This document shows positions 3,920 through 39,685 of a stretch of 64,000 nucleotides of DNA, piece by piece; the stretch's first letter is position 1; each line of letters begins with the position of its first letter. The notes under the pieces were generated by a model that saw nothing but the letters and a program-made list of their open reading frames with translations, ran no database searches and was not told the DNA's origin. Position numbers and translations under genes: made by a program. Source of the DNA: Deltaproteobacteria bacterium (lineage in GTDB: Bacteria; Myxococcota_A; UBA796; SXON01). The stretch is taken from contig BJHF01000020.1 in NCBI GenBank assembly GCA_014191855.1, positions 1 to 64,000 on the forward strand. Reading direction: 5' to 3'.

Positions 3920-4566
3920 GCGCGGATCGCCCCGACCTGCCGACCGAGATCGCCGCGCCGATGGGAGAACCACCCCTCGCCGCATCGGGTGCACCCCCCG
4001 ACCACCTCCACCGCAACGCCAATTTCGGCGAGGATCGCCCGGTTTGCTTCTGCCAGATCGACGTGGCGCCCGTCGCGCCAGCTCGCCCCGGGCGCCACGG
4101 CCCCCACCCCCTGGATCACTTCGTCCCCAACCTCGTAGCAGCAGCCCCGGATCGAAGGGCCCACCGCCGCGCGGAGCTCGTGCACCCGGCAGCCCGCCGC
4201 CGTCGCCGCCGCCGCCGCGCTCAACCGCACGATGTCCGCAGCGGTTCCGCGCCACCCCGCGTGGACGGCGGCCACCACCCCAGGACCCGCCAGCAACACG
4301 GGAACACAATCGGCGACGCGCACCGCCACGATCGTTCCGGGGGTGGTGGTGAACAGTGCGTCCGCCTCCAACGCCGTGTCCTCCCGCAGATCTTCAGCCG
4401 CAAGCACCCGATTTCCGTGCACCTGCGACACCGTGGCGATGGGCGATCGGCCGCCGAGAACGGCGGCGAGGGAGGCCAGGCCCTCGGTGTTGCCCCGGCG
4501 CAGATCTCCCTCCGCCAACCCAGTGAATGCGTGGACGGCCGGGGACAACAAAGCGGAGCGCAACAT
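3916..4566 (-). CDS. pgeF: Peptidoglycan editing factor / purine nucleoside phosphorylase PgeF (YfiH family)
   Basis: A 216-residue member of the multicopper-oxidase-like YfiH/DUF152 family. The metal-binding and catalytic signature is complete: SQVHGN with His50, VADCVPV with Cys87 and VHAGWRG with His102. GPSIRGCCYEVG and the C-terminal CTRC and RRGDLGRQ segments also match. Family members have been described as removing misincorporated serine from peptidoglycan precursors, and related proteins act as purine nucleoside phosphorylases or laccases. The gene is slightly shorter than the usual ~240-250 residues. It is upstream of, and overlaps by 4 bp, the TPR lipoprotein, and diverges from the kelch gene with 54 bp between starts. 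Confidence 0.9.
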   Translation of the reverse strand: MLRSALLSPAVHAFTGLAEGDLRRGNTEGLASLAAVLGGRSPIATVSQVHGNRVLAAEDLREDTALEADALFTTTPGTIVAVRVADCVPVLLAGPGVVAAVHAGWRGTAADIVRLSAAAAATAAGCRVHELRAAVGPSIRGCCYEVGDEVIQGVGAVAPGASWRDGRHVDLAEANRAILAEIGVAVEVVGGCTRCGEGWFSHRRGDLGRQVGAIRA

Positions 4567-4607
4567 GGCGGGCGGAACCGGGCGTCCCTACCCTTATCGG
4601 ACCGTGC

Positions 4608-4613
4608 TACGCT
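4608..4613 (+). promoter_or_regulatory. TACGCT -10-like hexamer 7 nt before the kelch gene
   Basis: TACGCT is followed by seven bases and then the ATG at 4621, with no Shine-Dalgarno sequence. A -10 box at this distance would place transcription start at or near the start codon (leaderless mRNA). Confidence 0.5.
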
Positions 4614-4620
4614 GGGCGCG

Positions 4621-6204
4621 ATGTCGCTCGGAATCCTGCTCTCGCTTGCGGCGTGCACCGGCACCACGGGCGGCGCCGTAGATTCCGCCTCGGTGGCGGA
4701 CTACACGCTGAACCTGCGGCCCATCGTGCCGCTCGATCTCAACCCCTTCGATGGCGCGGATCGGATCGACCTGCTGTTGGATTCGGGCGTGGGCGATCCG
4801 GTCCGGATCACGCTCGACGCGCCTGCGGCGGGGGACAGCGCCTTGGCCGAGGGGCTGCCGGCCCTGGACGGTACCCGGATCATCGTCGAGGGGTACTCGG
4901 GTGGCGAGCTGGTGGCGTGGGGGCGTTCGGCGCCGGTGATCGCGGTGAACGGAGAGGTCGAAGCAACCATCTTCGTGAGTGGTCCGGAGGCGATCGGCAA
5001 GCTGGGCGGACTGCCGGAGCCCGACGCAGATGGGGCGGGCGCCGCCCTCGGCGATGGACGCTTCGTGGTGATGGGCGGCAGCGGCAACCGGACCTCGGGC
5101 AATGTGGACAAGACGACAGATGCGATGTGGGTTCTTGACCTTGAGGAGCCGGAGGAGGGCCTGGCGTTCACCGAGATCGGCGCGATGCCGAGCTACGTGG
5201 ACGCGAAGGGGGACGAACAAAGCAAGCGGCGAGGCTTCACCCTCACCCGACTCACCGCGGGGGACGCCGGGAAGTTCCTGATGGTCGGCGGCGGCCCATC
5301 CTACGGCTACGGCGATAGCACGGAGCTCACGGCCGAGGCCCGGCTGTTCGACCCCGAAACCTTGAACTTCGAGGACGCGATCCCCGACAAAGACGCGCTT
5401 TCGAACGCGCGGAGCAGCCACCGGGCCATTGGCAACCAGCAGGGCGCGGTGCTGGTGTGGGGCGGCTTTGGTTCCACGCCCGATGCCGGTCAATTCATCC
5501 TGCTCGCGGACGGCGAGCTGTACGACCCCGCCCAGCGCTCCTTTTCGTCGATCATCGGGGTTGATGACGGGGGATCGGTGGGCGTGGTGCTCGCGGATCT
5601 CGGGGACGATGGCACCCTGGTCGCCGGCGGTGCCCGGATGGAAGGGAACAATTGGGCGATCTCCGACGCGAGCCTGGCCGTGAGCCTCCGCGGCGACGTC
5701 GATGAGCTCTCCGGCATGGATCCAATGGCGGGCGGGGCGGCGGTAACGCTCGCGGATGGCGACGTGGTGGTGTTCGGCGGCGTCTCAAGCAACGCCTCGT
5801 TCGCGCAGGACGCAGCGGCCGTGGCTACCGACCAGGTGTGGCGGTTCCGGCACGGATCGAACACGTGGGAGGAGGTGGGGAAACTGGAGGTCGAGCGCGC
5901 GGGGCACACCGCCACGGCGATCGACGACACCCACGTGCTCATCGCGGGTGGATCCACGACGTGGTCGCCCTTCGCGTTCGGCGCCACGGCGCTTTCCTGC
6001 GTAGAGATCTACGACGTTGCGACCGACACGTCGTCGATGCTGGAGCGTTGCGACGAACAAGACGACGCTGTGGGGCTCCCGGGGCGCGCGGAGGCTCCGT
6101 TGGCCCTCGACGATCCCGATCTCGGCATCGTCTTCGTCGGCGGTGTAGACGGTGAGAACGGCGCGGTGGCGACGACTTCGTTCTATGGGCGGGCACCGGA
6201 TTAG
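4621..6204 (+). CDS. Kelch-repeat lipoprotein
   Basis: A 527-residue exported protein. The signal MSLGILLSLAAC ends in a lipobox with Cys at residue 12. After an N-terminal beta-rich region (about residues 25-125), at least six kelch-type blades are visible through their Val/Gly-Gly cores: FVVMGGSG, FLMVGGG, VLVWGGFG, VVVFGGVSS, VLIAGGST and IVFVGGVDG. A beta-propeller on the cell surface that binds sugar or protein is the expected role, but no ligand can be named. The open frame extends upstream to 3961, but that part is antisense to pgeF and has no export signal. The stop codon overlaps the stop of the convergent HAD gene. Confidence 0.85.
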   Translation: MSLGILLSLAACTGTTGGAVDSASVADYTLNLRPIVPLDLNPFDGADRIDLLLDSGVGDPVRITLDAPAAGDSALAEGLPALDGTRIIVEGYSGGELVAWGRSAPVIAVNGEVEATIFVSGPEAIGKLGGLPEPDADGAGAALGDGRFVVMGGSGNRTSGNVDKTTDAMWVLDLEEPEEGLAFTEIGAMPSYVDAKGDEQSKRRGFTLTRLTAGDAGKFLMVGGGPSYGYGDSTELTAEARLFDPETLNFEDAIPDKDALSNARSSHRAIGNQQGAVLVWGGFGSTPDAGQFILLADGELYDPAQRSFSSIIGVDDGGSVGVVLADLGDDGTLVAGGARMEGNNWAISDASLAVSLRGDVDELSGMDPMAGGAAVTLADGDVVVFGGVSSNASFAQDAAAVATDQVWRFRHGSNTWEEVGKLEVERAGHTATAIDDTHVLIAGGSTTWSPFAFGATALSCVEIYDVATDTSSMLERCDEQDDAVGLPGRAEAPLALDDPDLGIVFVGGVDGENGAVATTSFYGRAPD

Positions 6205-31236: not shown

Positions 31237-33891
31237 ATGATCCTCCTCGCCCTGCTCGCGTGCTCCGACTCGTTCTCGCTGCGGTTCGTGAGCCCCGAGG
31301 CGGGCGAGGTGGTCGCCCTCGGCGCGCCGGTGCCGCTCACCGTTGGCGTGACCGGCGCCGCTGTAGGCGATCTCTCCTGGCGCTTCGAGGCGAACGGCGC
31401 GGCCCTCGAGGGCGAGCTCAGCCTGGACACGGCGTTGAACGAGGCGATCTGGACGACGTCCGCGTTGCCCGCCGGTACGCAGACCGTCACGGCGTACGGA
31501 AGCGCGGACGAAGCCTCCGCCTACGTCGCGACCACATTCGCCGTCCTCGATAATCAGCCGCCAACGGTGACCTTCCTGAGCCCAACCGAGGGGGCGACGT
31601 TGATCGCGGGGGTGCCGTTCGAGGTGCGCGCGATGGTGGAAGACCCAGACGCATCGGCGGGACACGCGGGGCTCACGCTGGTGTGGAGTGGCGCGGCTGC
31701 AGGCGCCCTGACGGCGCCGAACACGATGGTTGAGCCCGGCGAAGTCCACTTCTTTCTCGATGGGGTGAGCGAGGCGGGCACGATGGGCCTGCGGGCTACG
31801 GACAGCTGGGGCGAAGCTGGCGAAGCCACAGTGAGCTTCATGATGGGCAGCGGCGATGCCGATGGGGACGGGTTCGCCGACGCGGCGCTGGGGGGCGACG
31901 ATTGCGACGATGAAGACGCCAACGTCTCCCCGGCGGAGACGGAGCGGTGCAACGGCGTTGACGATGATTGTTCGGGGATCGCCGACGACAACCCGGTGGA
32001 CGGGCAGACGCTCTACGCTGACGATGACGGCGACGGATACGGCGACGACGGCCAGACCACGCTCGGCTGCGAAGGCGCGGACGGGTGGGCGGACCAAGGC
32101 GGCGACTGCGACGACACGAACGCGGCGGTGAACCCGGGCGCCCCCGAGCAGTGCGAAACCGGGATCGACGAGAACTGCAACGGTGAGATCGACACCGACG
32201 CGTCGGGCGCCATCTACCAGTGGAGCGATGCCGACGCGGATGGGTACGGGCGCGGCGCGGCCACCGTAGATTGCGCCGTGATCCCCGGGTATGCGCCGCA
32301 GTCCGGCGACTGCGACGACACCAACCCCAGCGTGAACCCCGGTGCCGACGAGGTGTGCGACGCCGCCAACGCCGACGAGGACTGCGACGACGCTGCGGAC
32401 GACGCTGACGCCTCCGCCACCGGACAAACCCGCTTCTACGCGGACTCCGACCGCGACGGCTACGGGGAGAGCACCTCCACCAGCAACCGCTGTGACGCAA
32501 CGGCGGGGTGGGTGAGCAACAACGACGATTGCGACGACGGCGAGGCGCTGGCCTGGACTGGCGCGACCGAGGTGTGCGACGACGGTGCCGACAACGACTG
32601 CAGCGGTGGGGACGCATCCTGCGCGTTGTCCGGCACGATCTCGCTGTCGGGAGCGGACGTGAAGCTGACCGGAGGCGGCGCGCTCGGCTTCGCGGGCGAC
32701 GCGGTGGACTCCGCGGGCGACGGGGATGCCGACGGGCTCGACGACCTCGTCGTCGGCGCGTGGAGCTACGGCACGGGCGGCACCGTCTACCTCGTAGACG
32801 GCGCGTCGCTGAGCAGCGGCTCGCTCTCCGGCTACACCAGCGTCACCGCCGAAGCATCCGGGGACGAGCTCGGGTACGCGGTGGCGGGCTGCGGGGACGT
32901 CGGCACCGACTCGCGCGACGATGTGGTGTTCTCCGCACCAGGGAACGGCAGCGGCAAAGGCGCGATCTACCTCTGGGCAGGCGGGAAGGCGGCCGGCGCC
33001 GCGTCCACCGCCACGGACGAGGTCGACGGTAGCTCCACCACCGACGCGCTCGGGAGCGCGCTCGATTGCGGCGCGGACGTAGATGACGACGGCAAGATCG
33101 ACGCGCTCGGCGGCGCCCCGGGCGCGGGCGTCGCCTACCTCTACACCGCTTCCACCCTCACGAAGTGGGGCACGCTCACCGGTTCGGCCGACGCGGGCAG
33201 CGCCGTGGCCTTCGTGCACGACGTAGATGGCGACGGGGTCGACGACCTGCTGGTGGGCGAGTCTCAATCCAACAAAGCGTGGTTGGTGCTCGGCTCTTCC
33301 GCCCTCGGCAACGTAACGCTCTCCACCGGCGCGGACGCCGCGTACACCGGCGAAGCGACCGACGACAGCGCAGGCACCTCGCTCGCGGGCTTCGGCGACG
33401 TGGATGGGGACGGCTACGACGATCTTGGCATCGGCGCCCCCGAAAACGACAGCGCCGCCACTGCCGCCGGGAGCGCCTACGTCGTGATGGGCAAGGCAAC
33501 GCCGGCCAGCGCCAGCTTGTCCGCCGCTGACGCCCGCCTTCGCGGCATCGACAGCTCGGATCGCGCCGGCTTCACGGTCGCCGCCGCCGGCGACAGCGAC
33601 GCCGACGGCTTCGCCGACGTGCTCGTGGGCGCCTACTACGACGAAGCCGGCGGCACCGGCGCGGGCGCCGCGTACCTGCTCTACGGCAGCTCGGCGTTCG
33701 CGGGGCTGAGCTTATCCGCGGCGGACGCGACCTTTACCGGCGAGTCCACCCGCGACAGCGCGAGCGAGGGGCTGGCCGGCGCGGCCGACGTGAACGGCGA
33801 CGGCGCGGACGATGTGATCATCGGCGCGCCGAGCGAAGCCAGCGCGGGGAGCGCGGCAGGCGCGGTGTATGTGCTGTTTGGGGGTGGCTGA
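31237..33891 (+). CDS. Large FG-GAP / MopE-repeat lipoprotein
   Basis: An 884-residue surface protein whose signal is only MILLALLAC (Cys at residue 9). Residues about 15-200 contain Ig-like beta-sandwich segments (FVSPEAGEVVALGAPVPL; TFLSPTEGATLIAGVPF). About 200-460 hold four MopE-like units with CDD and DNDCSG-type cores and DxDGDGYG loops, expected to bind calcium or another metal. About 465-884 hold at least six FG-GAP repeats (GDADGLDDLVVGA, VDGDGVDDLLVG, VDGDGYDDLGIGAP, SDADGFADVLVGA, VNGDGADDVIIGAP), building an integrin-like beta-propeller. It follows the barrel gene by 4 bp and probably shares its transcript. Confidence 0.85.
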   Translation: MILLALLACSDSFSLRFVSPEAGEVVALGAPVPLTVGVTGAAVGDLSWRFEANGAALEGELSLDTALNEAIWTTSALPAGTQTVTAYGSADEASAYVATTFAVLDNQPPTVTFLSPTEGATLIAGVPFEVRAMVEDPDASAGHAGLTLVWSGAAAGALTAPNTMVEPGEVHFFLDGVSEAGTMGLRATDSWGEAGEATVSFMMGSGDADGDGFADAALGGDDCDDEDANVSPAETERCNGVDDDCSGIADDNPVDGQTLYADDDGDGYGDDGQTTLGCEGADGWADQGGDCDDTNAAVNPGAPEQCETGIDENCNGEIDTDASGAIYQWSDADADGYGRGAATVDCAVIPGYAPQSGDCDDTNPSVNPGADEVCDAANADEDCDDAADDADASATGQTRFYADSDRDGYGESTSTSNRCDATAGWVSNNDDCDDGEALAWTGATEVCDDGADNDCSGGDASCALSGTISLSGADVKLTGGGALGFAGDAVDSAGDGDADGLDDLVVGAWSYGTGGTVYLVDGASLSSGSLSGYTSVTAEASGDELGYAVAGCGDVGTDSRDDVVFSAPGNGSGKGAIYLWAGGKAAGAASTATDEVDGSSTTDALGSALDCGADVDDDGKIDALGGAPGAGVAYLYTASTLTKWGTLTGSADAGSAVAFVHDVDGDGVDDLLVGESQSNKAWLVLGSSALGNVTLSTGADAAYTGEATDDSAGTSLAGFGDVDGDGYDDLGIGAPENDSAATAAGSAYVVMGKATPASASLSAADARLRGIDSSDRAGFTVAAAGDSDADGFADVLVGAYYDEAGGTGAGAAYLLYGSSAFAGLSLSAADATFTGESTRDSASEGLAGAADVNGDGADDVIIGAPSEASAGSAAGAVYVLFGGG

Positions 33892-33986: not shown

Positions 33987-34349
33987 CTACCGCCCCAGAT
34001 CCTCGTACCCGGCCTTGTAGAAGTAGTACGTGTCGGAGCCACAGTGCACGGCGCCACCGTGCCACCCGTCGCCGTTGTAAGACGACTCGGTGTCGAGGGT
34101 GCACTCCTTGCCTACGATGCTGGACTTGTCGCTGTAGTAGGCGTCCTCCGTGCTCAAGTCGGCGATGCGAACGCGCTCGCCCGCCGGCAGTGCGCTGTAC
34201 GCCCGAGCGCCGGAGCCGCCGCCACCCCCGCTGGAACCCGCGTCCACTTCCTGAGCGATCTCCTCAAACATCGAGGCCATGTCGCCGCCACAACAGCAGC
34301 AGCCGCCGGCCGCCAACACGATACCGGCCACGGGGAGGAGCAGCTTCAC
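33987..34349 (-). CDS. Small lipoprotein with one copy of the Cys/Tyr/Trp-rich repeat domain
   Basis: A 120-residue protein (GTG start). The hydrophobic signal MKLLLPVAGIVLAAGG is followed by four Cys in a row (17-20), the first being the likely lipidation site. After a Gly/Ser linker (about 38-48), residues 54-118 form one unit of the domain shared with the two larger proteins upstream in the operon: RVRIADLSTEDAYYSD, IVGKECTL, GDGWHGGAVHC and TYYFYKAGY. I do not recognise this domain. It is the last gene of a leftward operon, 46 bp after the caspase-like gene, and may be a lipid-anchored partner or inhibitor built from the same module. Confidence 0.78.
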   Translation of the reverse strand: MKLLLPVAGIVLAAGGCCCCGGDMASMFEEIAQEVDAGSSGGGGGSGARAYSALPAGERVRIADLSTEDAYYSDKSSIVGKECTLDTESSYNGDGWHGGAVHCGSDTYYFYKAGYEDLGR

Positions 34350-34395
34350 GAGATCACACGGGGGAGTCTGTTCGCGCTAACGTGCCCGCCCCGCT

Positions 34396-36939
34396 TCAGC
34401 GACGTTCCACCGACACGTACGCAAAGTACCAGTACTGGCCTTCGCACGTCATCCCGCCGCCGTAGAACACACCATCGTTGCGGTGGAGGTCCCCGCTTAC
34501 GATGCAGCTCTTCCCGATGTAGTCGGCCCGCTCCGCATAGTAGAGGTCGCCTGAGCCGAGGTCGGTGATGCGAAGCTTCACGCCGTCCTTCACTTTGTCG
34601 CCGAGATCCTGGCCCTTCTTGCCCAGGGAGTCCGCGCCACCCGCGCCCGAGAGGGCAGCCTTGTAGAAGTAGTAGCTCTCCCCGTTGTCGCAGTTGATGG
34701 GGCCGCCGTGCCAGCCCCCGCCGTTGTCGGAGGTCGCATCGGCCGTCGTGCATGACTGTCCGATGATCGAGCTTCTGTCCGCGTAGTACGCATCCTCGCT
34801 CGAAACGTCGGTGATCGTGACCCGCGTTCCCGAGGCCACGGAGCCGGTGAGCTTTCCACCGCTCGTCGCAACCGCCGCCGCCGCCACCTTCGTCTTCCCC
34901 GAGGCCACCTGTACTTTGTAGAAGTACTTCCCGCCGTCGGGGCACTTCATGCCGCCGCCGTACCACAGCCCGTCATTGCGGTGCAAATCTCCATCTACCG
35001 TGCACGTCATGCCCACCAGGTCGAGACGATTGCTGTAATAGGCATCGTCGGAGCTCACGTCTACGATGGTTACAGTCTTGCCGTTCGCGACGTTCTCGCC
35101 CATGTCTTCGGCCCGGCCGGTGCTCGCGGACGTCGCGACCGCAGCCGACGCCAACACCAGCTCCGCCTTGTAGAAGTAGTAGCTCTCGCCGTTCTCGCAG
35201 TCCATGGGGCCGCCGTGGTAGCCGCCGCCGTTGTGCGACATGCCGTCGCCGGCGGTGCAGCTCAGCCCGAGCAGCTCGGAGCCAGGATAGTACGCATCCT
35301 CCGCCGAGATCCCGGTGATGCGTACCTTGGTGCCCGCGGGGATGTCGTACTCGATGTGCGGACTCGCGCTCGTGGGGGCGGGCGCCTTCTTTGCAGCGAC
35401 GGGGGCGCTGCCATCCGCCGGGATGAACGCCGCTTTATAGAAATAGTAGCTCTCGCCGTTCTCGCAGCTCGCGGGACCACCGTGCCAGCCCTCTCCGTTG
35501 TGGTTCGTGTCGGCGTCCGGCGTGCAATACAGGCCGATCATCCCCTCGCGCGAGGAATAGTAGGCGTCGTCGGAGGAGATATCTTCGATCCGCACGCGGG
35601 TGCCCTCGGGGATCGGGCCGAACACCCGGCTCCCCGTCGCGGCCGTGGAGGCGCGACTGCTCGTGAACGCCGAGCGGTCCTGCTCCTCGATCCACGCCGT
35701 GGCCTCCGCCACCTGGGGTACGGGCACCACGATCACGGTATCGTCGATCGCGACGGTCGCCTCGCCGTAGGTCGCGATGTAGGTCTCGACCACTTTTCGC
35801 GTCGCCGATCCACCGCTTTTCAGGACGCTTTTCACCGACGTCCAGTCACGCGCGGCCTTGTCAAGCAGGGTGCTCCGGGCCTCTTCCAGACGCCGGGTGC
35901 GCTCGCTTTCCAGGGCCTTGCGCACCGTGTCCGCGCGGTCCGTCGCCGCTCGCGCTGCGGCATCCGCGCGCGCTGCTTCCGCCGCCAACGCCGCAAAGTC
36001 GGTACCGCCGGTGCTGTACGTCGGCGAGCCGACCGGAGGCACGTAGGCCGGCTCGGGAACGACCACCTCCACGCGGAGGTCGGGCCCGGTTTCTTTGGCG
36101 CCCTTCACCATCGCCCAGCCTTTCGGGTAGTCGATGGCGAGCTGCGGATTCTGCTGGGTAATCCCGACGGCCGACAGGGATTGTGCGATGTACTCCTGGG
36201 CTTCGTCGGCGCTCACCGATCCGTCCTTCTTCCCATCGAGCTGCCCATCCGCCCAGCCGCGCCCCGCTCCCACCCAGAAATAGGTGAACGCGCCGTGGCC
36301 GGTGCCCGGGAGCGGACGAGCCAGCTCCGAAGGCCCGGCGGCGTTCCACTCGGCGATTCCTTTCACCTGGGTGATCGCGGCGCTTGGAACGACAAAACGC
36401 GTGCCGGCTTCCAGAACGCTCCCGCCCTGACGGGTGCCCCCGTTGAAGCAGGCATCGATCACCATCATGAGCTGCGCGCCCTGCGACGTGCCAAGCTTTT
36501 TGATCTCCGCGACAGTGACCGAACGCGCGGACATGGCCTCCGGGGCCGTCGGCACGTCGTCGCCGAACAGCAGGCGTTCACCGCTGGGAGAAGCCCCGCC
36601 ATGCCCGGCAAAGTAGAACCACAACGTGCCGCCGGAGCCCACCTGGTGCGCCATGTCCTGGAGCGCGCCGAGGATCACCTCACGGGAGGCCCCGGCCGTG
36701 AGCAAGCGCACCTTCGCCGGCGCCACGCCACGTGTATACACAAGGAAGTCCCGTACCAACTTTGCATCTGCGGTTGCGCCGGGCACGTCGGCTACCCGGA
36801 GGTAATCCTCCACACCGATCACCACGGCCGCGTCGCTCGCATTCGCGGCGCCCGTCTTGAGGGGGGCGCCGTCGAGCATCGGGAGCGGGTCGGCGGCAAA
36901 CGCCGATGTGGAGAGCAGCGCGAGCATGGAAAGCAACAT
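34396..36939 (-). CDS. Exported caspase-like (C14) protease with five copies of an unrecognised repeat domain
   Basis: An 847-residue protein. Signal peptide about 1-15 (MLLSMLALLSTSAFA). Residues 35-270 are a caspase/metacaspase fold: VVIGVEDYL, LWFYFAGHGG with catalytic His113, MMVIDACFNGG with catalytic Cys164, and TGHGAFTYFW. An EF-hand-like DGKKDGSVSADEAQEY (about 236-251) follows. A helical charged region spans 315-380. Five repeats follow at about 443-505, 533-594, 616-678, 700-762 and 783-845, each with V-x-I-x-D/G-x-S-x-x-D-A-YY, an IG-x-x-C core, a G-W/Y-x-GG-P/M-x-x-C core and YYFYK. Catalytic residues are intact, so protease activity is plausible; substrate and role are unknown. 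Confidence 0.85.
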   Translation of the reverse strand: MLLSMLALLSTSAFAADPLPMLDGAPLKTGAANASDAAVVIGVEDYLRVADVPGATADAKLVRDFLVYTRGVAPAKVRLLTAGASREVILGALQDMAHQVGSGGTLWFYFAGHGGASPSGERLLFGDDVPTAPEAMSARSVTVAEIKKLGTSQGAQLMMVIDACFNGGTRQGGSVLEAGTRFVVPSAAITQVKGIAEWNAAGPSELARPLPGTGHGAFTYFWVGAGRGWADGQLDGKKDGSVSADEAQEYIAQSLSAVGITQQNPQLAIDYPKGWAMVKGAKETGPDLRVEVVVPEPAYVPPVGSPTYSTGGTDFAALAAEAARADAAARAATDRADTVRKALESERTRRLEEARSTLLDKAARDWTSVKSVLKSGGSATRKVVETYIATYGEATVAIDDTVIVVPVPQVAEATAWIEEQDRSAFTSSRASTAATGSRVFGPIPEGTRVRIEDISSDDAYYSSREGMIGLYCTPDADTNHNGEGWHGGPASCENGESYYFYKAAFIPADGSAPVAAKKAPAPTSASPHIEYDIPAGTKVRITGISAEDAYYPGSELLGLSCTAGDGMSHNGGGYHGGPMDCENGESYYFYKAELVLASAAVATSASTGRAEDMGENVANGKTVTIVDVSSDDAYYSNRLDLVGMTCTVDGDLHRNDGLWYGGGMKCPDGGKYFYKVQVASGKTKVAAAAVATSGGKLTGSVASGTRVTITDVSSEDAYYADRSSIIGQSCTTADATSDNGGGWHGGPINCDNGESYYFYKAALSGAGGADSLGKKGQDLGDKVKDGVKLRITDLGSGDLYYAERADYIGKSCIVSGDLHRNDGVFYGGGMTCEGQYWYFAYVSVERR

Positions 36940-36945
36940 GGCGAC

Positions 36946-37860
36946 CTACTTGACGTCCACGCGGACTTTGTAGAAGTAGTAATAGTTCTTCTTGCAGGTG
37001 AGCCCGCCGCCGTACCAGTCGGCATCGTTCTGCGGGTGGAGGTCCCCCGTGACCTTGCACGCCTTTCCGATGAGGCTCATCCGATCGGAAAAGAAGGCGT
37101 CATCCGGCGAAACATCCTTGATCACCACCTTCGTGCCCTCGTCGAGCACCCCTGGCTCCGAGGTGCGGTCGTCGCCCCCGCCAAGGAGCGCGCCGAGCAC
37201 GCCTCCCGACTCGACCTGCGGCTGGATGTCCATGTTGCCGTGCGTCGGGTCCGTTACGAGGCCGACCTTGTAGAAATAGAAGGTTCGCCCATCCCAACAC
37301 GTCATCGGGCCGCCATGCCAACCGTCCTGGTTGTAGCTCATGTCGTCGGTCGGGTAGCAAGTCACCCCGACGATCTCGGCGCGATCCGAGAAGTAGGCGT
37401 CTTCCGGGGAGAGGGCCACGATCCGCACCGCCTCGCCGGCATGCACGTCGCGACGCAACGACTCGCTCGGCGCGACGTTCGGGCTGCCGGTCACGATGGG
37501 TGGCGGAGATGTGGGCGCCGGGAGCCCGGCCCCGTCGAGCTTGATCGACGAGCCAAGGCCCGCCGCGATCGAGGTGGCCGACACCGAGCGCGGTTGCGGC
37601 TGGGTTCCAGGCACCGAGACCGACACGCCCGTGGTGTTGTAGGTCACCCCGTTTGCGCAGACCAATTGCCCGCGCCACCACCCGTCCCCGCTGGAAGCGA
37701 GCGGCAGCTTGCCGACGGCGCACACCTCGCCGAGCATCGCGCCGCGCTCCATCGCGTTCGGGTCGTTCCCCGCCACGTCCGTCACCACCACCGTGGTACC
37801 GGGGCCGAGCGTGAGGCTGCCGGCCAGGGCCGAGGCCGCGCTGAGAATCACAAGAAGCAT
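36946..37860 (-). CDS. Exported protein with three copies of the same repeat domain
   Basis: A 304-residue protein with signal peptide MLLVILSAASALAG. The first repeat (about 17-82) is diverged: it keeps GTTVVVTDV, MLGEVCAVG and GWWRGQLVC but lost the YYFYK end. The second (about 137-201) is of type A (AYFSD, VGVTC, GWHGGPMTC, FYFYKV) and the third (about 237-303) of type B (AFFSD, LIGKACKV, GDLH, WYGGGLTC, YYFYKV). Linkers are rich in Pro, Ser, Gly and Asp. It has no enzymatic domain. The stop is 6 bp before the caspase-like gene, so co-translation is likely. Confidence 0.82.
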   Translation of the reverse strand: MLLVILSAASALAGSLTLGPGTTVVVTDVAGNDPNAMERGAMLGEVCAVGKLPLASSGDGWWRGQLVCANGVTYNTTGVSVSVPGTQPQPRSVSATSIAAGLGSSIKLDGAGLPAPTSPPPIVTGSPNVAPSESLRRDVHAGEAVRIVALSPEDAYFSDRAEIVGVTCYPTDDMSYNQDGWHGGPMTCWDGRTFYFYKVGLVTDPTHGNMDIQPQVESGGVLGALLGGGDDRTSEPGVLDEGTKVVIKDVSPDDAFFSDRMSLIGKACKVTGDLHPQNDADWYGGGLTCKKNYYYFYKVRVDVK

Positions 37861-37882: not shown

Positions 37883-39685
37883 CTACGGGCCCACGTCGAT
37901 GGTTTCGCCGAAGCTCGGCGTGATACGAATGCCGTCTACCGCACAATTCCCGTCCAAGCCGACCACCACCACGGTGTCCTGCTGCTGCCCCGTCACCCCG
38001 TAGCCGCCCGAAACGTCGAAGGTTTGGGTGGTCCCGCTCGCGTCCACATCCACCCGGGTGCCGACGGCGAGCCCGCTGATCGTCAGGGATGTCCCCCCGA
38101 GGCGATTCTCCCAAAAATGGAGCGTGTTCTCCGTCCACGGTGAGCCGCCGCGGGCGTGCGAAGATCCGGTCACGACGTCAAGGTCCCCGTCCCGGTCGAA
38201 GTCGGCCACGGCTTCCCCGTGCGGCCACGGCTGGTTCAGCCCCGTCGCATCGCTTACATCCTCGAAGGTGCCATCGCCCAGGTTGCGCCAAACGAACAGG
38301 TGGGTGTCCTCGTAGTCGGAGTCGACGAGGAGGATGTCTTTCCATCCGTCGAGATCATAGTCAAAGAACGCCCCTTCGAGGTCCCCTTCGTTCCAGTCCC
38401 CCGTCTTCGGCTGCTTGCGGGCGAGCCCGTTCTCTTCGCTGTCGGCCCGCTCAAACACGCCTTCGCCGTCGTTGAGCAACAACTGGCTCCCATCGCCGCT
38501 GCCCCCGGCCCACTTGTGGTGGATCTCGGTGTGGAACAAGTCGAAGTCCCCGTCATTGTCGATGTCGCCGCACACCGTGGTGAACGTGTTGCCCGCGAGC
38601 CGCGCGGGCTGGTCGTCCCAACCCGGCGTCCAGTAATTGTTGGGGAAGGCCCCATCACAATCCACCGTCGGCTTGGGATCGCAGCTCGCTGCCTCACAGT
38701 AGCAGGCGTACCAGAGGTTGTCGGTATAGTCGAGGTTGTCGTCGGCATCGATGCCGGCCGATTCGCCGATCTCCTCCCACTCTCCGCCGGACTGCGAAAA
38801 CATCAGGTTCCACGAGCGCGCGTAGGTGGACTGGATCAGCTCCGCCGCGCCATCCCCGTCTACATCGCACGCCGTGGCGCCGTACCCGGGCCGCCGCCGG
38901 TCACGGTCGAGGTACTGATCCGCGGTGCGCGTGGGTTTGAGGTCCATCGCCGTGCCGCTGGTCACATCCTCGAACGTACCGTCTCCCCGCCCTTCATAGA
39001 GCTTGGGCGGCCCGGCATCGTAATCCACGCCGTACTTCGAGTACCACGACACCACCCACAAGTCGGGGTAGTTATCCGCGTTTACATGGGTGAATGACGC
39101 GCTCACGGTGGACTTGAGCACGTCTCCCACGCCGCTCGCCGCGACCCGGCTGAAGTGCCCGGCGCCGTCGTTGAGGAAGATGGCGTCCCGCTCTCCCGTG
39201 GTGTCCTCGCTGCCTTCGTCGTAGTTTCGCCCGGCGAAGAGGTCGAGGTCCCCATCCAGGTCCACGTCCGCGGCGGCGTACGTCGCGTGCCCCGTTCCCA
39301 ACGCGCCATCTTCGCCCACCAACAGGCCGCTCTCGTCCGATTCGTCGAGGAACACCCGCCGCCCGCCGGACTCACGGTTCATGAGCACGCGATGGTAATA
39401 GATGCCCGAGGCCGGATCGTCGCGAGTGGTACCGCTTGCTTCGTTCACGATGAGGTCTGCGTACCCGTCCCCGTCGAGATCCACCGTCATCATGTTCGAG
39501 GCAGTGAAGCCATCGAGGCCCCAGGCGGTCGTCTCCTCCACAAAAGCGGGGCTTGTCTCTGAATAGTCCTCGGCCTCCCCATCGCAGGAGAAGCGAACTT
39601 CCACCCCATCCGGGAGGTTGGCCCACTCGCTTTCGGACGCGGTGTCCTCGATGGGCGGACAAGCGAGCAGGAGCGTGAGCAACAT
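37883..39685 (-). CDS. FG-GAP/VCBS-repeat lipoprotein with ASPIC/UnbV-like C-terminal domain (CRTAC1 type)
   Basis: A 600-residue surface lipoprotein (signal MLLTLLLAC, Cys at residue 9). Seven Asp-rich FG-GAP/VCBS loops are visible: VDLDGDGYADLIV, VDLDGDLDLFAG, VNADNYPDLWVV, VDGDGAAELIQ, IDNDGDFDLFH, YDLDGWKDILLV and FDRDGDLDVVTG, which build a calcium-stabilised propeller. The last ~70 residues (SLTISGLAVGTRVDVDASG through DTVVVVGLDG) match the ASPIC/UnbV type that closes such proteins. An extra Cys-rich insertion sits at about 305-330 (ACYCEAASC). It heads the leftward operon leading into the repeat-domain genes (22-bp gap). Confidence 0.85.
   Translation of the reverse strand: MLLTLLLACPPIEDTASESEWANLPDGVEVRFSCDGEAEDYSETSPAFVEETTAWGLDGFTASNMMTVDLDGDGYADLIVNEASGTTRDDPASGIYYHRVLMNRESGGRRVFLDESDESGLLVGEDGALGTGHATYAAADVDLDGDLDLFAGRNYDEGSEDTTGERDAIFLNDGAGHFSRVAASGVGDVLKSTVSASFTHVNADNYPDLWVVSWYSKYGVDYDAGPPKLYEGRGDGTFEDVTSGTAMDLKPTRTADQYLDRDRRRPGYGATACDVDGDGAAELIQSTYARSWNLMFSQSGGEWEEIGESAGIDADDNLDYTDNLWYACYCEAASCDPKPTVDCDGAFPNNYWTPGWDDQPARLAGNTFTTVCGDIDNDGDFDLFHTEIHHKWAGGSGDGSQLLLNDGEGVFERADSEENGLARKQPKTGDWNEGDLEGAFFDYDLDGWKDILLVDSDYEDTHLFVWRNLGDGTFEDVSDATGLNQPWPHGEAVADFDRDGDLDVVTGSSHARGGSPWTENTLHFWENRLGGTSLTISGLAVGTRVDVDASGTTQTFDVSGGYGVTGQQQDTVVVVGLDGNCAVDGIRITPSFGETIDVGP

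Follow-up and report, generated by a model that had tools for sequence, protein, structure and literature searches.

What does a small cysteine-containing module do when it recurs in three adjacent genes and is fused, in one of them, to an exported caspase-like protease? The question is raised by genes A, B and C of a Deltaproteobacteria bacterium (Myxococcota_A; assembly GCA_014191855.1), which lie in the window analysed here, positions 1 to 64,000 of contig BJHF01000020.1. Nine units of about 62 residues, one in A, five in B and three in C, were found by motif and by profile hidden Markov model (HMM) in these three same-strand genes, which follow a gene for an FG-GAP repeat protein with an ASPIC/UnbV-like end (hereafter UnbV). 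To an earlier reading of this DNA (the original prediction) the cluster looked like a secreted protease accompanied by its adaptors or inhibitors. As judged from their sequences, the units are a genuine and unnamed domain family, new to the databases, and the arrangement C-B-A is an accessory block rather than a fixed system. On a modest balance of probability, the units would be reusable extracytoplasmic SH3-like binding modules, which aim or anchor the protease when they stand on B.

A domain family outside the databases

The units were recovered with E-values per genome of 1e-21 to 1e-32, far beyond chance, and even the first unit of C, which lacks the YYFYK motif, was found by the HMM. Searches with single units and with profiles of 13 and 85 sequences gave no significant family match in Pfam, NCBIfam or PDB. 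SH3_3 (PF08239) scored 13.6 bits with B against a cutoff of 27, and 18.5 at best with a distant carrier, all below the gathering score; the NfeD C-terminal domain (PF01957) scored 15.9 bits with B against 29.1 and over short stretches only, and the best NfeD total for a protein, 29.4 in a distant carrier (L147), includes no single stretch that is significant alone. MecR1/beta-lactamase gave local matches only (E 0.16 or worse), and Anti-LPS-SCYG was discounted since just two of the 85 units match it. One unit region of a seven-unit protein in a distant carrier (L059, 4811-6862) does match Anti-LPS-SCYG above the cutoff (28.7 against 25, over 40 residues), probably by chance.

An AlphaFold2 model of the unit, built with 85 aligned units, reached a mean predicted local distance difference test (pLDDT) score of 96, with strands at residues 7-13, 30-33, 44-51 and 56-66 and a helix at 20-26. 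This confident model suggests an SH3-like small beta-barrel, at the level of fold class only. Its Foldseek neighbours are mostly SH3, Tudor and ribosomal KOW-type barrels, the first being PetP (probability 0.93, template modelling (TM) score 0.56), so that SH3-like barrels (SH3_3, PetP, Tudor, SH3) are its best structural neighbours, at scores that are not significant. The unit differs from them by a helix in the first long loop, by the signature DAYY...GWxGG...YYFYK and by its cysteine pair. Weak sub-threshold Pfam matches of individual members, to SH3_3, Tudor_2, NfeD, DUF4926 and Agenet, point the same way.

The cysteines behave as a pair. In the 85-unit alignment both are present in 57 units, neither in 28 and a single one in none (Fisher p 4e-23, a value that overstates independence, since the sequences are related). 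Among 161 distinct units from the fetched loci, 122 have Cys1 and Cys2, 32 have a cysteine in a GCW motif, seven have neither and none has a single one; all 32 members of the GCW class also hold a cysteine at most 25 residues upstream, usually in CPxGA, as against only 3 of the 122 in the Cys1-Cys2 class. The alternative pair belongs to a sister group (L062-L075, family f3), and nearly all the unit copies read from Bacteroidota of the Chitinophagales type lack the cysteine pair. Such exceptionless co-occurrence argues strongly that a disulfide forms, and that one fold can take either of two disulfides, although the bonds themselves are predicted. Since the sister group uses a different pair and some Bacteroidota copies have none, the fold would be independent of the disulfide.

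Part of the original prediction stands. It had counted nine units in three genes, which the open reading frames, motif and HMM reproduce; it had placed the unit outside named families, as the profile searches now do; its suggestion of a disulfide from one cysteine pair per unit is well supported by the 122 paired units, and that of a small beta fold agrees with the predicted barrel.

A predicted exported caspase with a different tail

The original prediction also held the caspase dyad of B to be intact, and so it proved. B matches Peptidase_C14 (PF00656) at 9.4e-9, with 35.7 bits against a gathering score of 21.4, and keeps both His113 and Cys164, the dyad being intact in all three B orthologues; by profile and dyad B is a Peptidase C14 member, presumably with proteolytic activity. 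The AlphaFold model of residues 17-442, made with 18 relatives, has a caspase fold, to which Foldseek finds the MALT1 paracaspase closest (5.6e-11), followed by metacaspases (about 1e-9 to 1e-7). A sequence search of the caspase domain against solved structures gave no match, and the model for EACC1-associated caspase (NF047832) gave 55.7 bits, short of its NCBIfam cutoff of 140. In the comparison of B with the G004 orthologue (NG86), the ratio of nonsynonymous to synonymous substitution rates (dN/dS) was 0.09 for the caspase domain, 0.25 for the linker and 0.35 for the units, at a dS of about 0.8-1.2, which is near saturation; these values suggest strong constraint on the caspase domain and purifying selection on B.

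Caspase relatives occur in 57 of 94 genomes of the order. Beyond the three orthologues, those nearest to B (about 45-53% identity) are unit-less and have varied C-terminal ends. The linker of B, modelled with helices at 299-357, 362-375 and 392-419, is shared, over residues of about 331-442, with 12 of the relatives examined, unit-less caspases of the order (phmmer E 5.8e-12 to 1.5e-5), two of which (L102 and L108) share caspase family and linker with B but end in an FGE-sulfatase domain (PF03781), where B ends in units. Shared linker and varied ends together indicate that B is the exported caspase-linker scaffold of the order, to which another tail is attached. In the tree of the units, which has 68 columns only and poorly resolved deep forks, most B units cluster by position across the three species; B3 and the last B unit share a branch with unit C3, and the others lie nearer the units of A and of its paralogue. 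From this placement we infer that the tail was probably assembled from neighbouring unit genes.

Many genomes of the family hold, in addition, a caspase paralogue with the same linker and an AREWLDYA-type tail, in which the catalytic cysteine motif is missing (DASF, DAGF or DVGF in those aligned; L158, on its own contig C28, and L103, L104, L105, L106, L109, L112, L113 and L114). By these motifs it is a conserved exported pseudo-caspase.

Prokaryotic caspases with extra domains and a possible signal peptide are on record (PMC3501461). B resembles other bacterial Peptidase C14 proteins (orthocaspases and metacaspases) in its caspase fold and intact His-Cys dyad and differs in ending in an array of unnamed units, where the others end in usual Pfam domains. 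The parallel in the secreted Bradyrhizobium caspase A5ECX2 extends to the signal peptide, the caspase domain and tandem extracellular C-terminal modules, here two YARHG domains; YARHG is, however, a different domain, predicted to form four alpha-helices, and the passage on it reports no neighbours sharing its module (PMC3355149). A literature search found nothing on caspases or orthocaspases of myxobacteria, and nothing useful on UnbV/FG-GAP or on SH3 and disulfides.

What the units may do

The carriers appear to be exported, as the original prediction had proposed from N termini that are signal-peptide-like or lipoprotein-like. That of C, read from the sequence, is signal-like (MLLVILSAASALA), and lipobox-type cysteines are seen by eye in UnbV (LLAC) and in A (AAGGC-CCC), where the motif is kept in orthologues; export and lipidation are predictions from these N termini. 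Gene A and its orthologues and paralogues (L015, L037, L038, L040, L041, L043-L047, L050, L051) show a run of three or four cysteines after the hydrophobic N terminus (AAGxCCCCGG), perhaps a lipobox plus extra cysteines.

In the explanation that we favour, the unit, with one disulfide in this lineage, would serve outside the cytoplasm as a reusable binding module. On A a single copy would sit on a lipid anchor; C and a four-unit paralogue of A would present short strings of units in exported proteins, C being free or bridging; and in a few species a tail of five or six copies would be carried by the otherwise ordinary exported caspase-like protease B, in the place where related caspases have other C-terminal domains, such as FGE-sulfatase. 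Repetition would raise ligand binding outside the cytoplasm, and the most likely role of the tail would be to direct the protease to, or hold it on, a surface ligand or the FG-GAP lipoprotein of the operon. The latter is the first candidate partner because it is the most constant neighbour of C. Both the targeting role and the ligand are conjectural. Two results weigh against this explanation. Foldseek gives the unit model no match under E 0.001, the top SH3-like neighbours having E of at least 0.2 and TM of about 0.5, so that SH3-like is a call of fold class only; and within B constraint is lowest on the units (dN/dS 0.35), lower than an essential specific contact would predict.

A rival function, anchoring to the cell wall, is unlikely but the most probable of the alternatives. 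Here the units would be functional analogues of SH3b, binding peptidoglycan or stem peptides, and A, B and C would be periplasmic wall-associated proteins. The predicted SH3-like fold, the extracytoplasmic N termini and the tandem arrays, which are typical of wall binders, all agree with such a function, for which there is a precedent in an exported caspase whose YARHG repeats are putative peptidoglycan binders (PMC3355149). Yet the units do not belong to SH3_3 by sequence, falling well short of its cutoff, and the operon has no wall-hydrolase partners.

An association that comes and goes

Of 94 related genomes, 21 carry units, all of them in families f1 and f3 of a single order, and a wider sample of the phylum (331 genomes) returned the same 21 and no other sampled group. 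They are also found in 10 of 199 genomes of a Chitinophagales-type order of Bacteroidota. Two of the Bacteroidota carriers (L152, 2972-5527, and L153, 5476-7983) are proteins of about 840 aa that begin with a PDZ-like region, continue with a long middle part and have one unit at the very C terminus. Viral contigs hold no relatives of the unit and a viral structure library gave no significant match for it, and a phage origin was rejected on both counts.

Whether A and C serve B can be judged from how often the three genes travel together. The idea of a dedicated protease system, in which A and C would act on B as adaptors or inhibitors and recognise it through the shared modules, draws on the single operon with gaps of 6 nt (C-B) and 46 nt (B-A), on the presence of the same module in all three genes, and on the order of the genes, since B has C on one side and A on the other in every case in which both flanks are covered. 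However, a unit-bearing caspase was found in only three of the 21 unit genomes (this one, G004 and G005), the fusion being absent from the other 18 among the matches listed. C adjoins A without B in G002 and G006; in G009 the two are about 1 kb apart with no B between, and a similarity search found no caspase remnant in the gap. Five further relatives (G007, G008, G010, G014 and G017) have only C after UnbV. That A and C persist where B is missing weakens the inhibitor or adaptor idea, and a dedicated system now seems improbable.

The position after UnbV is the steadier feature: all 10 relatives that have C at the locus place it directly after UnbV, both genes on one strand, and UnbV is also present without C. 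The UnbV and MopE genes abut in G001, with 8 nt between them, and in G003, with an overlap of 7 nt, whereas this genome has A, B and C in a stretch of 3,991 nt between the two. Although the G001 assembly is 76% complete, the site is contiguous, and absence of the block there is therefore real. The UnbV tree pairs G001 with this genome, and G003 with G005, as sisters; with B-bearing species so interleaved with block-less ones, the block has been lost at least twice, or has moved. The absence of the block from G001 and G003 and the commonness of Cys-less pseudo-caspases in the family might suggest that B has lost its proteolytic activity, or was fused recently, and is a by-product without a function of its own. 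This is very improbable in view of the dyad intact in all three orthologues, the low dN/dS of the caspase domain and a unit order conserved across three species.

The system part of the original prediction is thus not supported: the association is largely lacking in relatives, where the fusion is rare, C occurs with A or alone, and two genomes have no block. No strong match to a characterised domain with a known role was found, and the claim of a new module stands. What remains of the system is a lineage-specific domain combination. The module itself, which related bacteria mostly use without the protease, looks more like a reusable part for binding to surfaces than a component of a dedicated protease system.

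The operon and its surroundings

The fourth gene, UnbV, heads the operon (Table 1), giving the order UnbV, C, B, A, all on the minus strand, with 22 nt between UnbV and C. Its product matches Pfam FG-GAP_3 at 8e-25 and UnbV_ASPIC, sub-threshold, at 0.013. A generic 'caspase' model among the PADLOC defence-system models matches B and none matches A, C or UnbV, so that these models lend no support to an anti-phage defence system. The genome has a second unit locus, the four-unit paralogue of A (L015, 5506-6693, contig C30).

Convergent with the operon is a MopE/FG-GAP gene (31237-33891), whose product combines FG-GAP repeats with four metal-binding motifs of the MopE type; the gene is kept beside the block in the genus. 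The C-A gap of G009 (L050, about 4260-5230) may hold an opposite-strand coding fragment, lectin-like by eye.

Table 1. Positions of the operon genes, domains and units in the window
Feature	Position	Strand	Description
UnbV/FG-GAP gene	37883..39685	-	600-aa FG-GAP repeat protein, ASPIC/UnbV-like end, lipoprotein-like N terminus MLLTLLLAC
Gene C	36946..37860	-	304 aa, predicted exported protein of three units
Unit C1 (degenerate)	37609..37806	-	HMM E 1.5e-21
Unit C2	37255..37446	-	HMM E 2.3e-30
Unit C3	36952..37146	-	HMM E 7.6e-28
Gene B	34396..36939	-	847 aa, predicted exported caspase-like protein: caspase, linker domain, five units
Caspase domain	36070..36891	-	B residues 17-290; PF00656
His113 codon	36601-36603	-	in YFAGHGG
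Cys164 codon	36448-36450	-	in IDACFNGG
Helical linker domain	35620..36042	-	about residues 300-440; phmmer and AlphaFold2 helices
Unit B1	35422..35613	-	HMM
Unit B2	35155..35343	-	HMM
Unit B3	34903..35091	-	HMM
Unit B4	34648..34839	-	HMM; modelled by AlphaFold
Unit B5	34402..34593	-	HMM
Gene A	33987..34349	-	120 aa, GTG start, lipoprotein-like, one unit, CCCC motif past hydrophobic N terminus
Unit A1	33999..34190	-	HMM E 2.0e-29

Implications

The locus adds to the record an unnamed domain family of one order and of Bacteroidota, for which a profile could be made now. It also offers a natural experiment in which one small barrel appears to have gained different disulfides after export. Taken as a whole, we put forward tentatively, as an idea that could well be wrong, that an undescribed extracytoplasmic SH3-like family, stabilised by one disulfide in one lineage (Cys1-Cys2), by another in its sister lineage (the CPxGA cysteine with the GCW cysteine) and by none in Bacteroidota, acts as an exchangeable targeting array that makes a generic exported caspase a ligand-directed surface protease. 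Such an array suggests a way in which the poorly understood exported caspases of bacteria may exchange C-terminal targeting domains, and a comparison of the locus states found among close relatives (no block, C, C-A and C-B-A) offers a means of testing what the added caspase does.

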